DNA of 64,000 bases from Streptomyces sp. YIM 130001 (GTDB taxonomy: Bacteria > Actinomycetota > Actinomycetes > Streptomycetales > Streptomycetaceae): positions 124,001-188,000 of the forward strand of contig NZ_KZ984550.1 of the NCBI RefSeq assembly GCF_003574445.1. The letters run 5' to 3'. The notes under the pieces are model-generated. The model searched no databases. It had not been told where the DNA came from and saw only the letters and a list, made by a program, of their open reading frames with translations. Position numbers and translations under genes: made by a program. This document shows, piece by piece, positions 2,141-52,548 of the stretch. Within the stretch, counting starts at the first letter, position 1, and every line of letters starts with the position of its first letter.

Positions 2141-3904
2141 TCACCGCGCCGACCGGGGCCCGCGGCCGGCGCCCCGCAGCTCCCCGTACGCCCCCGTCGG
2201 CACCACGGGCGCGACAGGGGCCACCGCGGGCACGCGCGTGTACGGCGATCCCTGGTCGGGCCGGGTGTCGGTGTCGCCCTTGTTCGGCCACAGGGACATC
2301 GCGCGCTCGGCCTGTGCGGTGATCGTCAGGGACGGGTTGACCCCGAGGTTCGCGGACACCGCGGATCCGTCGACGACCGAGATCCCGGGGTGGCCCCAGA
2401 GCCGGTGGTACGGGTCGACCACACCGTCCTCGGGTCCGGCGCCGATCGGGCAGCCGCCGAGGAAGTGGGCGGTGAGCGGGCGGCCGAGCAGTTCGCCGAG
2501 ATTGGTGCCGGCGAGACCGCCGATCCGGTCGGCGAGCAGTCCTGCCGCGCGCCAGCCCTCCGGTATGTGGACGGGGTTGGGGCTGCCGTGCCCCTGGTCG
2601 GCGGTGAGCCGGCCGCGTCTGCCGAGCCGGGTGGTCAGCGAGTTGTCGTGGGTCTGCATCACCAGGCCGATGATGGTCCGCTCGGACCAGCGGTAGGTGG
2701 TGACGGTACGGGCGACCACCACCGGGTGGCGGGCGAAGGCGAGCACCGCCGCTACCGGTTTCGGTATCCGCTGCGAGTACTGCGGCACGCAGATCAGGGC
2801 CATCAAGTTGGAGCCCTTGCCGTAGCGGACGTTCTCGATGTGGGTGGCGGGGTCGGGGTGGATGGACGAGGTGATGGCGACGCCCTGGGTGAAGTCGGGG
2901 TTTCCGCTGCCGCCGCTGCGGCGGTGGCCGCGCGGGGTGGTCAGGGCGCCCACCAGGGCCTCGGAGTTGGTTCGGGTCAACTCGCCCAGCCGGTCGGACA
3001 GTCGGGGCAGCGCGCCACGTCTGCGCAGGGTGTGCAGCAGGGTCTGGGTGCCGTACGTGCCGGCCGCGAGGACGACGTGCCGGGCGCGCAGCACGCGTCG
3101 GCCGCGGCGTCCGCGGCCGGTGCGGGTGACGGTGACCTGGTGCCCGCCGCCGGGGGCCTCGCGCACATCGGTGACCGTGGTGAGCGGGTGGACGACGGCG
3201 CCGGCCCGTTCGGCGAGGTACAGGTAGTTCTCGGTGAGGGTGTTCTTGGCGCCCACCCGGCAGCCGGTCATGCACGATCCGCACTGCGTGCAGGCGCGGC
3301 GGGGCGGTCCGGCGCCGCCGAAGTAGGGGTCGGGGGCCTCGGCGCCGGGTTCGGCCCGGGTTCCTCCGTCGGCGTCCTCGCCGTCCCCGAAGAAGACTCC
3401 GACGGGGGTGAGCCGGAAGGTGTCCGGGACGCCCATCTCCCGTGCGGTGTCCCGCAGATGCTCGTCGGCCTCGGTGACGGTGGGGTTCTGCCGTACGCCG
3501 AGCATGCGCTGGGCCTGGTCGTAGTGCGGGGCGAGTTCGTCCTGCCAGTCGGTGATGGACGCCCATTGGCGGTCCTGGAAGAAGGCGGGCGGCGGTACGT
3601 AGAGCGTGTTGGCGTAGTTGAGGGAGCCGCCGCCGACTCCGGCGCCGGCCAGGACCATGACGTTGCGCAGCAGGTGGATGCGCTGGATGCCGCGCAGGCC
3701 GAGCCGGGGTGCCCACAGGTAGTCGCGCAGGGACCAGGAGGTGCTCGGCAGGGTGTCGCGGGTGAAGCGGCGGCCGGCTTCCAGGACACCGACCCGGTAG
3801 CCCTTCTCGGTCAGTCTGAGGGCGGTGACCGAGCCGCCGAATCCGGAGCCGACGACGAGCACGTCGTAGTCGAAGCCGGTCGTGGTGGCGTGCGGGTCAG
3901 TCAC
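2141..3904 (-). CDS. GMC-family FAD oxidoreductase, cholesterol-oxidase-like
   Basis: 587 residues with the GTG start at 3904, which overlaps the last 8 nt of the upstream acyl-CoA ligase gene, so the two are co-translated. The N-terminus carries the FAD dinucleotide motif VVGSGFGGSV. The middle holds a cysteine cluster, CTQCGSCMTGCRVGAKN (about residues 205-221), a feature of the ChoD/cholesterol oxidase-like branch of the GMC family. The C-terminal FAD/active-site segment includes HFLGGCPIG and DGSAVSANLGVNPSLT. It probably oxidises a lipid alcohol or sterol-like substrate in the cytoplasm; pairing with a fatty acyl-CoA ligase supports a lipid role. The exact substrate cannot be read from sequence. 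Confidence 0.87.
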   Translation of the reverse strand: MTDPHATTTGFDYDVLVVGSGFGGSVTALRLTEKGYRVGVLEAGRRFTRDTLPSTSWSLRDYLWAPRLGLRGIQRIHLLRNVMVLAGAGVGGGSLNYANTLYVPPPAFFQDRQWASITDWQDELAPHYDQAQRMLGVRQNPTVTEADEHLRDTAREMGVPDTFRLTPVGVFFGDGEDADGGTRAEPGAEAPDPYFGGAGPPRRACTQCGSCMTGCRVGAKNTLTENYLYLAERAGAVVHPLTTVTDVREAPGGGHQVTVTRTGRGRRGRRVLRARHVVLAAGTYGTQTLLHTLRRRGALPRLSDRLGELTRTNSEALVGALTTPRGHRRSGGSGNPDFTQGVAITSSIHPDPATHIENVRYGKGSNLMALICVPQYSQRIPKPVAAVLAFARHPVVVARTVTTYRWSERTIIGLVMQTHDNSLTTRLGRRGRLTADQGHGSPNPVHIPEGWRAAGLLADRIGGLAGTNLGELLGRPLTAHFLGGCPIGAGPEDGVVDPYHRLWGHPGISVVDGSAVSANLGVNPSLTITAQAERAMSLWPNKGDTDTRPDQGSPYTRVPAVAPVAPVVPTGAYGELRGAGRGPRSAR

Positions 3905-50003: not shown

Positions 50004-51163
50004 AGGCCCAGCTCCGGAACCTCGTAACGGCGGCCCTCTGCCGAGGACTTGAGGCCGAGGTCGGCGAGCTGCACGCCGCGGGCGCCGGCGAGCAGGTCCC
50101 AGTGGTAGGGCTCGTCGGCGTACACGTGGCGCAGGAACAGTTCCCACTGCGCCTTGAAGCCGTTGGAGAAGTCCCCGCCCTCCGGCTGGTTGTCGGGGAC
50201 TTCCTGCCACTGGTCGCGGAACGCCTCGGTGGCGGGCAGGTCCGGGTTCCACACCGGCTTCGGGGTGGCGGAGCGGTGCTGGGCGCGGCAGTTGCGCAGA
50301 CCGGCGACGGCGGAGCCCTCGGTGCCGTCGACCTGGAACTCGACGAGTTCGTCGCGGTTGACCCGGACCGTCCAGGAGGAGTTGATCTGGGCGATCGCGC
50401 CGCCCTCCAGCTCGAAGATGCCGTACGCGGCGTCGTCGGCGGTCGCCTGGTACGGCTTGCCCCGCTCGTCGAAGCGTTCGGGGATGTGGGTGGCGGTGCG
50501 CGCGGTGACCGAGGTGACGCGGCCGAACAGCTCGTGCAGGACGTACTCCCAGTGCGGGAACATGTCGACGACGATGCCGCCGCCGTCCTCGGAGCGGTAG
50601 TTCCAGGACGGGCGCTGTGCCTCCTGCCAGTCACCCTCGAAGACCCAGTAGCCGAACTCGCCGCGTACGGACAGGATGCGGCCGAAGAAGCCGCCGTCGA
50701 TCAGGCGCTTCAGCTTGAGCAGGCCCGGCAGGAAGATCTTGTCCTGGACGACGCCGTGCTTGATGCCGGCGGCGTTCGCCAGGCGGGCCAGCTCCAGGGC
50801 ACCGTCGAGGCCGGTGGCGCTGGGCTTCTCGGTGTAGATGTGCTTGCCGGCGGAGATCGCTTTCTTCAGCGCCTCCTCGCGGGCCGAGGTGACCTGCGCG
50901 TCGAAGTAGATGTCGATGCTGTCGTCGGCGAGCACCGCGTCCAGGTCCGTGCTGAAGTGCTCCAGGCCGTGCCGCTCGGCCAGCGCGCGCAGCGCGTGCT
51001 CGCGCCGGCCGACGAGCACGGGTTCGGGCCACAGGACCGTGCCGTCCCCGAGGTCGAGGCCGCCCTGCTCGCGGAGCGCGAGGATCGAGCGGACCAGATG
51101 CTGGCGGTGTCCCATCCGCCCCGTCACACCGTTCATGGCGATGCGCACCGTCTTGCGTGTCAC
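50000..51163 (-). CDS. Gfo/Idh/MocA-family oxidoreductase
   Basis: 387 residues from GTG 51163 (GGAGGAGTTCT upstream). N-terminal Rossmann fold RIAMNGVTGRMGHRQHL, then the catalytic-lysine motif HIYTEKPSATG, and the alpha/beta C-terminal substrate domain with DMFPHWEYVLHELFG. It oxidises or reduces a sugar or inositol-like substrate with NAD(P). The nucleotide motif GVTGRMG is less canonical than GxGxxG but typical of a subgroup. It is first in the operon, 66 bp downstream of a LacI-type operator. Confidence 0.9.
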   Translation of the reverse strand: MTRKTVRIAMNGVTGRMGHRQHLVRSILALREQGGLDLGDGTVLWPEPVLVGRREHALRALAERHGLEHFSTDLDAVLADDSIDIYFDAQVTSAREEALKKAISAGKHIYTEKPSATGLDGALELARLANAAGIKHGVVQDKIFLPGLLKLKRLIDGGFFGRILSVRGEFGYWVFEGDWQEAQRPSWNYRSEDGGGIVVDMFPHWEYVLHELFGRVTSVTARTATHIPERFDERGKPYQATADDAAYGIFELEGGAIAQINSSWTVRVNRDELVEFQVDGTEGSAVAGLRNCRAQHRSATPKPVWNPDLPATEAFRDQWQEVPDNQPEGGDFSNGFKAQWELFLRHVYADEPYHWDLLAGARGVQLADLGLKSSAEGRRYEVPELGL

Positions 51164-51228
51164 AGAACTCCTCCGAACGCGGCATCGGCTCGCCCCGGTC
51201 CGGCCGTCGGACACTTCACCGGACCTCG

Positions 51229-51244
51229 TAGCAAGCGCTTTCTA
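51229..51244. promoter_or_regulatory. LacI/GalR-type operator
   Basis: TAGCAAGCGCTTTCTA is palindromic at 14 of 16 positions around AAGCGCTT, the classical LacI-family core. It lies between the divergent Gfo/Idh/MocA operon and the lacI gene, 66 bp from the dehydrogenase start. Confidence 0.8.
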
Positions 51245-51393
51245 TGCGTAAGAAAGCTAGCCTGCCAGCCAAGCCCTGTACAAGGGGGTGTCGCGAAAGT
51301 CGCCTCGGCGGGGCTTCGGACACCCCCGGACCTCTCCCGCGGCGCCACGGATGTGCGGCGCGGGCCCGGATTCCCGACGTTCCGGAGGACTGG

Positions 51394-51453
51394 ATGACCG
51401 TGAAGTGCCCTCAGTACGCGACGACCGCGGTGGCGTTCCGGAGGCCGCGATGA
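51394..51453 (+). CDS. Micro-ORF 1 of a coupled leader
   Basis: 19 codons (MTVKCPQYATTAVAFRRPR) from ATG 51394 with CCGGAGGACTGG upstream. Its TGA overlaps the ATG of micro-ORF 2 (ATGA). Every ribosome site and start here resembles that of lacI, so it is either a translated leader or the residue of a duplicated start region. Confidence 0.45.
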   Translation: MTVKCPQYATTAVAFRRPR

Positions 51454-51479
51454 CGACCGCGAACGTCCGGAGGCCGTGA
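51450..51479 (+). CDS. Micro-ORF 2 of a coupled leader
   Basis: 9 codons (MTTANVRRP) from ATG 51450 with TCCGGAGGCCGCG upstream, ending in TGATG, which starts micro-ORF 3. Overlap on both sides would let ribosomes re-initiate directly. Confidence 0.45.
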   Translation: MTTANVRRP

Positions 51480-51511
51480 TGACGAACGTCGAGCCCCGGA
51501 GGACGAGATGA
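51479..51511 (+). CDS. Micro-ORF 3 of a coupled leader
   Basis: 10 codons (MTNVEPRRTR) from ATG 51479 with TCCGGAGGCCGTG upstream. Its stop overlaps the lacI start by 4 nt (ATGA), so lacI translation is probably coupled to it. Confidence 0.45.
   Translation: MTNVEPRRTR
51508..51508 (+). promoter_or_regulatory. lacI start codon within a fourfold repeated SD-start module
   Basis: The lacI ATG is the fourth in a series, each preceded by CCGGAGG and 4-6 nt: starts at 51394, 51450, 51479 and 51508, all beginning ATGAC. The SD used for lacI is CCGGAGGACGAG. Confidence 0.6.
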
Positions 51512-52548
51512 CCGTGACCCTGGCGGACGTCGCGGCGCGCGCGCAGGTCTCCCCCGCCACCGTCTCCCGTGTCCTGAACGGCAATTACCCGGTGGCCGCC
51601 GGCACCCGCGAGCGGGTGCTGCGTGCGGTCGACGAGCTGGACTACGTCCTCAACGGCCCGGCCAGTTCGCTCGCCGCCTCCGCATCCGACCTGGTCGGCA
51701 TCCTGGTCAACGACATCGCCGACCCGTTCTTCGGGATCATGGCCGGGGCCGTGCAGTCCGAGATCGGCGGCCCCGGCGGCCGCGCCGGCGGCGAGCGTCT
51801 GGCCGTCGTCTGCAACACCGGCGGCTCCCCCGAGCGCGAACTGACCTACCTGACCCTGCTCCAGCGCCAGCGCGCCGACGCGGTCGTCATCACCGGCGGC
51901 GCGATCGAGGACGCCGAGCACATGGAGGCGCTGGCCGCGAAGATGGAACGGCTCACGGACGCCGGCACCCGCGTGGTCCTCTGCGGCCGCCCGCCGGCCC
52001 CCGGCACCGGCGCCGTCGCCCTCACCTTCGACAACCGCGGCGGCGGGCGACGCCTCACCGAGCACCTGCTCGGCCTCGGCCACCGCGTGATCGGCTACAT
52101 CGCGGGCCCCGAGGAGCGGACCACCACCCGGCACCGCCTCGAAGGCCACCGCGCCGCACTCGCCGCCGCCGGCCTGCCCGACGGAGCGACCGTGCACGGC
52201 CCCTACGACCGCAGCGCAGGCTACGACGCGGCGCTCGAACTCCTGCGCCGCGAGCCGTCGTTGACGGCGATCGTGGCCGCGAACGACTCGGTCGCACTCG
52301 GCGCGAGCGCGGCCCTGCGCGACACCGGCCGACGTATCCCCGACGACGTCTCGGTGGCCGGCTTCGACGATCTGCCGTTCAGCATCGACACGGTCCCGGC
52401 CCTGACGACCGTACGGCTCCCGCTGCACGAGGCGGGCGCCCGCGCGGGCCGGATCGCGACGGGCCGGGAGAACGAACCGCCGGGCGGCGTCGCCACGGTG
52501 CACGGCGAACTGATGGTCCGGGGGTCGACGGCACCGCCGCGTGGCTGA
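51508..52548 (+). CDS. LacI-family transcriptional regulator
   Basis: 346 residues, ATG 51508. N-terminal HTH TLADVAARAQVSPATVSRVL and hinge region to about residue 60, then a periplasmic-binding-protein-like sensor domain (LVGILVNDIADPFFGIMAGA, GYIAGPEERTTTRHRLEGH, IVAANDSVALGASAALRDTG, VSVAGFDDLPF). It probably represses the divergent Gfo/Idh/MocA-DUF993-isomerase operon through the AAGCGCTT palindrome and releases on a sugar-derived ligand. Its translation start is embedded in a micro-ORF cascade. Confidence 0.93.
   Translation: MTVTLADVAARAQVSPATVSRVLNGNYPVAAGTRERVLRAVDELDYVLNGPASSLAASASDLVGILVNDIADPFFGIMAGAVQSEIGGPGGRAGGERLAVVCNTGGSPERELTYLTLLQRQRADAVVITGGAIEDAEHMEALAAKMERLTDAGTRVVLCGRPPAPGTGAVALTFDNRGGGRRLTEHLLGLGHRVIGYIAGPEERTTTRHRLEGHRAALAAAGLPDGATVHGPYDRSAGYDAALELLRREPSLTAIVAANDSVALGASAALRDTGRRIPDDVSVAGFDDLPFSIDTVPALTTVRLPLHEAGARAGRIATGRENEPPGGVATVHGELMVRGSTAPPRG

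Follow-up and report, generated by a model that had tools for sequence, protein, structure and literature searches.

Before a lacI gene in Streptomyces sp. YIM 130001, an SD motif and an ATG occur four times in series, and each short frame so opened ends on the next start. Do ribosomes pass down this series to reach lacI, or is it the harmless residue of a duplication? The window, meaning the whole stretch of DNA analysed, is 64,000 nt of the forward strand of contig NZ_KZ984550.1, and the features discussed are these.

51233..51242, no strand assigned: operator-like block AAGCGCTTTC within AGCAAGCGCTTTCTAT
51254..51264, + strand: promoter-like block AAGCTAGCCTG, from conservation
51382..51398, + strand: most upstream module, CCGGAGG, 5 nt, ATGAC
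51394..51453, + strand: micro-ORF 1, 19 codons, MTVKCPQYATTAVAFRRPR*, with its 3' end in an ATGA overlap
51437..51512, + strand: 29-bp tandem repeat, 2.6 copies, 83% matches (Tandem Repeats Finder)
51438..51454, + strand: second module (unit W2), CCGGAGG, 5 nt, ATGAC
51450..51479, + strand: micro-ORF 2, 9 codons, MTTANVRRP*, with its 3' end in a TGATG overlap
51467..51483, + strand: third module (unit W1), CCGGAGG, 5 nt, ATGAC
51479..51511, + strand: micro-ORF 3, 10 codons, MTNVEPRRTR*, with its 3' end in an ATGA overlap onto lacI
51496..51512, + strand: lacI's own SD and start
51508..52548, + strand: LacI-family repressor, 346 aa (Pfam PF00356, PF13377, PF00532)

Coordinates derived afresh agree with the original prediction, which had described four CCGGAGG-N-ATGAC modules and three micro-ORFs (19, 9 and 10 codons) joined through ATGA, TGATG and ATGA overlaps. 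The modules span 51382-51512, with SDs beginning at 51382, 51438, 51467 and 51496, ATGs at 51394, 51450, 51479 and 51508, and a spacer of exactly 5 nt in each; they lie 56, 29 and 29 nt apart, every value being 2 mod 3. Stop and start overlap at all three junctions, and micro-ORF 2 has a further in-frame TGA directly after its stop. Located inside each micro-ORF is the CCGGAGG-N5-ATG that supplies the SD for the downstream start, and the Arg-Arg close to the end of all three micro-peptides is that next SD (CGG AGG) read in frame. The lacI product carries Pfam LacI HTH and Peripla_BP domains. The gene is divergent from those of a Gfo/Idh/MocA oxidoreductase and a DUF993 protein, and xylose-isomerase-like TIM-barrel proteins are encoded on both sides of it.

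The reading that we favour, with a rough probability of 0.5, is that this lineage-specific duplicated start region works as a termination-reinitiation ladder onto lacI; we infer both translation of the leader and an effect on LacI from sequence. The operator/promoter-like block near 51233-51264 would drive transcription of the leader. Ribosomes that bind the upstream SDs would read a short run of codons, stop at the overlap and begin again at each next ATG, the last being that of lacI. SD, start and phase would matter and the peptide sequence would be irrelevant. LacI output would thereby be set, or kept even, at a higher or a lower level, and the number of modules could change by slippage.

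With both strands of the window searched, the pattern CCGGAGGN{3,8}ATGA matched four times, always in the lacI array; shuffled windows gave a mean of 0.21 matches and at most 2, and none of 100 reached four. When the 240 nt preceding lacI were dinucleotide-shuffled 20,000 times, P was 0.0017 for four chained ORFs and 5e-5 for three chained with an SD, values that assume independent modules, which tandem copies are not. Across the 8.04-Mb genome the strict double-module pattern found only the two overlapping matches of this array, and the reversed control was empty. A looser pattern added one place, C11:62145-62199, which was rejected as a micro-ORF because a long ORF (frame open 218 codons upstream) there overlaps the next gene. 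The looser pattern with an ATGB second start, one without an A after it, matched the same genome at one place, on C25.

The ladder needs a transcript that begins above the array. The block AGCAAGCGCTTTCTAT, with core AAGCGCTTTC, is a putative LacI-type operator. Of 131 orthologous loci, 126 have the core in the 450 nt ahead of lacI, at 65-395 nt from the start (275 nt in the window), and in 108 of the 131 it is followed by [AG]GCTA[AG]CCT. In short-leader orthologues the operator/promoter-like block comes shortly before the SD, and since the SD is close behind it in the shortest leaders, the lacI transcript most likely starts just after the block. The array would then sit inside a long leader in the window. 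A transcription start below 51480, named in the original prediction as evidence against the cascade, looks unlikely by the same argument, because short-leader orthologues keep the block directly before the SD. For comparison, 5' UTRs in S. coelicolor have a median of 44 nt and 15.3% exceed 150 nt (PMC4895711). A consensus scan of 51140-51560 gave no Sigma-70 consensus promoter, so it is conservation that assigns the promoter; the same interval has no terminator-like site on the + strand.

The leader is predicted to be no more stable than its shuffles (z 0.41), which gives a structured leader no support; a known RNA family was rejected, the only matches being two snoRNAs far under their Rfam gathering scores. 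One hairpin is predicted at 51284-51327 (GGGGGTGTC...GACACCCCC), early in the presumed leader, and the stretch is mostly gapped in the alignment with S. triticagri. Ranked with the least accessible first, the lacI SD of the window is 54th of 131 and that of S. triticagri 128th. In these predicted folds the lacI SD thus appears not to be unusually hidden, and RNA folding lends no support to a role in which ribosomes melt it free.

How did the array arise? Every unit contains ATGAC and the spacing is 2 mod 3, so an upstream ORF stops at the TGA within the next ATGA, and a single duplication of suitable length (2 mod 3) would make an ATGA-coupled chain at once. The period-29 repeat and the presence of the array in just two sister species bear out, as to origin, the suggestion in the original prediction that a duplicated start region left it behind; tandem copying of the start is the supported account of where it came from.

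The phylogenetic spread was read from 131 orthologue loci including the window (125 distinct coding sequences). Fourteen of the loci L001-L144 were left out of this set: window copies (L001, L005, L115, L141, L142), paralogous fragments (L002-L004), a second S. triticagri copy identical to L035 over 700 nt (L006), loci with a start unlike the motif used (L027, L029, L033, L034) and a locus that lies too close to the end of its contig (L085). Only the window and S. triticagri (L035) had at least three GGAGG-N4-10-ATG modules within 200 nt of lacI. Loss of the micro-ORF frames in close relatives had been offered as a possible argument against the cascade. Such loss is what we see outside the sister species, the other 129 loci having at most two modules within 200 nt (126 have fewer than two; L057, L059 and L132 have two), but S. 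triticagri keeps a chain. A single module was counted in each of the near loci L143 and L144 (both part of the 131), L187 and L188. S. triticagri is the nearest row to the window in the lacI tree, in a two-row set with support 100 (FastTree). No closer member of the clade turned up in overlapping draws of 392 (genus), 394 (family), 99 (S. triticagri relatives) and 391 (order) genomes; in the genus draw 266 of 392 genomes matched lacI and leaders were inspected in best matches only, so a weaker array-bearing match could escape. Among the leaders read, the array appears young and confined to the two sister species. By eye, the lacI leaders of L036, L037, L077 and L114, just upstream of position 3001, show other lineage-specific repeats in the operator-to-lacI spacer.

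Origin by duplication leaves a main and serious rival to the ladder: a neutral relic, in which RBS-start copies duplicated by slippage matter little or not at all to lacI and persist since a 2 mod 3 spacing is harmless. We consider it quite possible, if short of even odds. It would sit well with an operator-to-lacI spacer that ranges over 65-395 nt and holds other repeats in other species, and with an array of at least three modules in two sister species only. The comparison of the two arrays bears on it from both sides.

Two units per species were compared, in an alignment anchored on the SD and start motifs themselves. All six pairings agree fully over CCGGAGG and ATGACG (13/13 each), and so the two orthologous ones together give 26 of 26. 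The SD-ATG spacers of the four units are 5, 5, 10 and 8 nt and all tails are 11 nt. Ungapped, the tails match at 4/11 and 5/11 positions in the orthologous pairings (9/22 together) and at 2 to 4 of 11 in the others; allowing gaps brings some of them closer, in one case to 7 matches among 8 aligned bases at the cost of 6 gapped ones. At fourfold sites of lacI, 66 of 241 differ between the window and S. triticagri, and at that rate 26 unchanged motif bases of 26 have P = 2.4e-4. Just 9 unchanged tail bases of 22 have P = 0.0018, so that the tails changed faster than by neutral substitution; this suggests units that turned over or were copied, more than base-by-base change, and it suits the relic.

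Chaining is also complete in both species. Every leader ATG tested has an ORF that ends on another start, 4/4 within 240 nt in the window (P = 0.0017 against shuffles) and 7/7 within 160 nt in S. triticagri (P = 0.00135), the copies not being independent. Identity of SD and start motifs over the four units, and chains without exception in the two species, both speak against a neutral relic, yet copying could give either. SD and ATG could stay alike through concerted evolution, with the constrained start of lacI as the source. The S. triticagri leader contains one 15-bp repeat without mismatch, in keeping with copying, and other short direct repeats; Tandem Repeats Finder reports no array there. 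That re-initiation sets the repressor level, as the original prediction proposed, is plausible in view of motifs kept while tails differ and of the chained ATGs in both species; its translational step is a deduction from the DNA.

Two further explanations allow the leader a function without the ladder. The upstream SDs might draw ribosomes in, as decoys or landing sites, and so lower or buffer translation of lacI with no true re-initiation. All four modules do carry the full CCGGAGG, and ribosomes are in general lost at each stop; exact stop-start overlaps, however, would then be unnecessary, and we hold this to be improbable. Alternatively the micro-peptides might form an attenuator that reports amino-acid supply or stalls ribosomes, in line with the original prediction that the Cys, Pro and Arg codons of the first peptide sense translation. 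These codons are present. The chain peptides of S. triticagri (MHDPEAAAR*, MTTVRCRRAAR*, MTGMEARRTR*) are unlike those of the window, the fold is no better than shuffles, no Rfam match reaches a gathering score, and Arg-Arg is accounted for by the next SD in frame. The sensing claim gains no support from the comparison, and we regard a peptide-sensing attenuator as very improbable.

Does the rest of the genus have a simpler form, a single upstream ORF? After dereplication to 103 loci, with the window and S. triticagri among them, ATGs at most 60 nt upstream of lacI fall in phases 2/0/1 as 58/9/7, with 49, 7 and 6 loci having such an ATG in phase 2, 0 and 1, respectively. On a quick lacI tree of the 131 loci, open-ATG states in phase 2, 0 and 1 (64, 7 and 4 loci) change 21, 7 and 3 times. 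Of the 48 loci with ACCGGAGG at equal distance, 30 carry the ATG of the commonest upstream ORF, MRDRRTTR* (8 codons, at -23, ending in ATGA on lacI; e.g. L008, L017 and L019), and no base between -24 and -17 is less conserved than the T of this ATG (31/48). A conserved single upstream ORF under selection was dropped as a candidate, this ATG having no extra conservation. The phase-2 bias of upstream ATGs seems to owe much to shared descent, and phase 2 is evidently tolerated.

A more ambitious version of the ladder is that it is a natural multi-step device, made of ATGA-coupled modules varied by slippage, with selected phase and SDs and with copy number as an evolvable dial for the repressor, and that one-step counterparts ahead of unrelated genes make up a broader class of natural Streptomyces fore-cistrons, not recognised so far. 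We think this unlikely in full. The strict tandem SD-ATGA pattern matched 24 times in 21 of 150 Streptomyces genomes, against 0 in the reversed control, with a spacing of 2 mod 3 in 13 of the 24, 0 in 11 and 1 in none; the 13 include two from the window and one from S. triticagri. At 10 of the 11 spacing-2 loci outside the window (one of which is the S. triticagri lacI), a frame of at least 181 codons is open at the second ATG. In L165 and L166 the ATGA overlap follows MNVLRRLV* and MNVLRRLI*, in a frame with 235 open codons upstream, and each looks like the tail of a longer gene. The frame is likewise open upstream for at least 503 codons in L153 (to the locus end) and for 179 in L146, and at several spacing-2 strict loci besides L165 and L166 a longer frame ends at the first (micro-)ATG. 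Such frames mean that ordinary operon overlaps feed the phase bias, with the proviso that in a high-GC genome long open frames can arise by chance and are no proof either way.

Run on 238 genomes with a looser pattern, the survey returned 52 matches spread over 44 of them, with phases 0/1/2 of 22/11/19 and 7 reversed-control matches; its counterpart with an ATGB second start gave 121 matches in 97 genomes, with phases of 87/22/12 and about 76 control matches. Phases 2 and 1 thus stand at 19/11 with ATGA second starts versus 12/22 with ATGB (Fisher P 0.044), a weak contrast whose P becomes 0.075 when near-identical matches are collapsed for ATGA and left as they are for ATGB. In L160, L171, L152, L163, L148 and L153, unrelated genes are preceded by a tandem RBS-start pair whose short frame, a putative micro-ORF, ends in ATGA. 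The same 14-mer occurs twice in two of these, GGAGGACGAGATGA 26 nt apart in L160 and GGAGGCAGCCATGA 29 nt apart in L171. To judge from L160 and L171, start duplications do occur elsewhere in the genus; a wider class of natural fore-cistrons in Streptomyces is tentative and weakened by these surveys.

If the array is translated, duplication of a start codon with its SD by a length of 2 mod 3 would be a simple bacterial route to translational control, the coupled leader being immediate, and the array would be a natural counterpart to synthetic bicistronic designs. More cases could be sought as tandem SD-ATGA pairs with a spacing of 2 mod 3, excluding the ends of longer genes.

Among known systems, leader-peptide attenuators have short ORFs in the leader; the lacI leader differs from them in that it shows no conserved peptide or structure signal. 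We found no such ladder described in the open-licence literature, judged by titles and abstract openings. In a study of gene overlaps in H. volcanii and E. coli, strict coupling was seen for 13 of the 14 overlapping stop-start pairs tested, with a role of the SD that varies (PMC6728339). Termination-reinitiation at those ATGA and TGATG overlaps has in common with the array a 4- or 1-nt stop/start overlap and an SD within the upstream frame; here, by contrast, the upstream frames are micro-ORFs of 9-19 codons, three in series and apparently duplicated from the start of the downstream gene. A bicistronic design for Corynebacterium requires translation of the fore-cistron and an active SD (PMC10367133) and, like the array, has a short leader ORF that bears the target's SD and overlaps its start. 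The array differs from that design in being natural, in its three serial fore-cistrons and in ATGA and TGATG overlaps in place of TAATG. The parts are known; what would be new is a run of three serial fore-cistrons apparently made from the target gene's own start.
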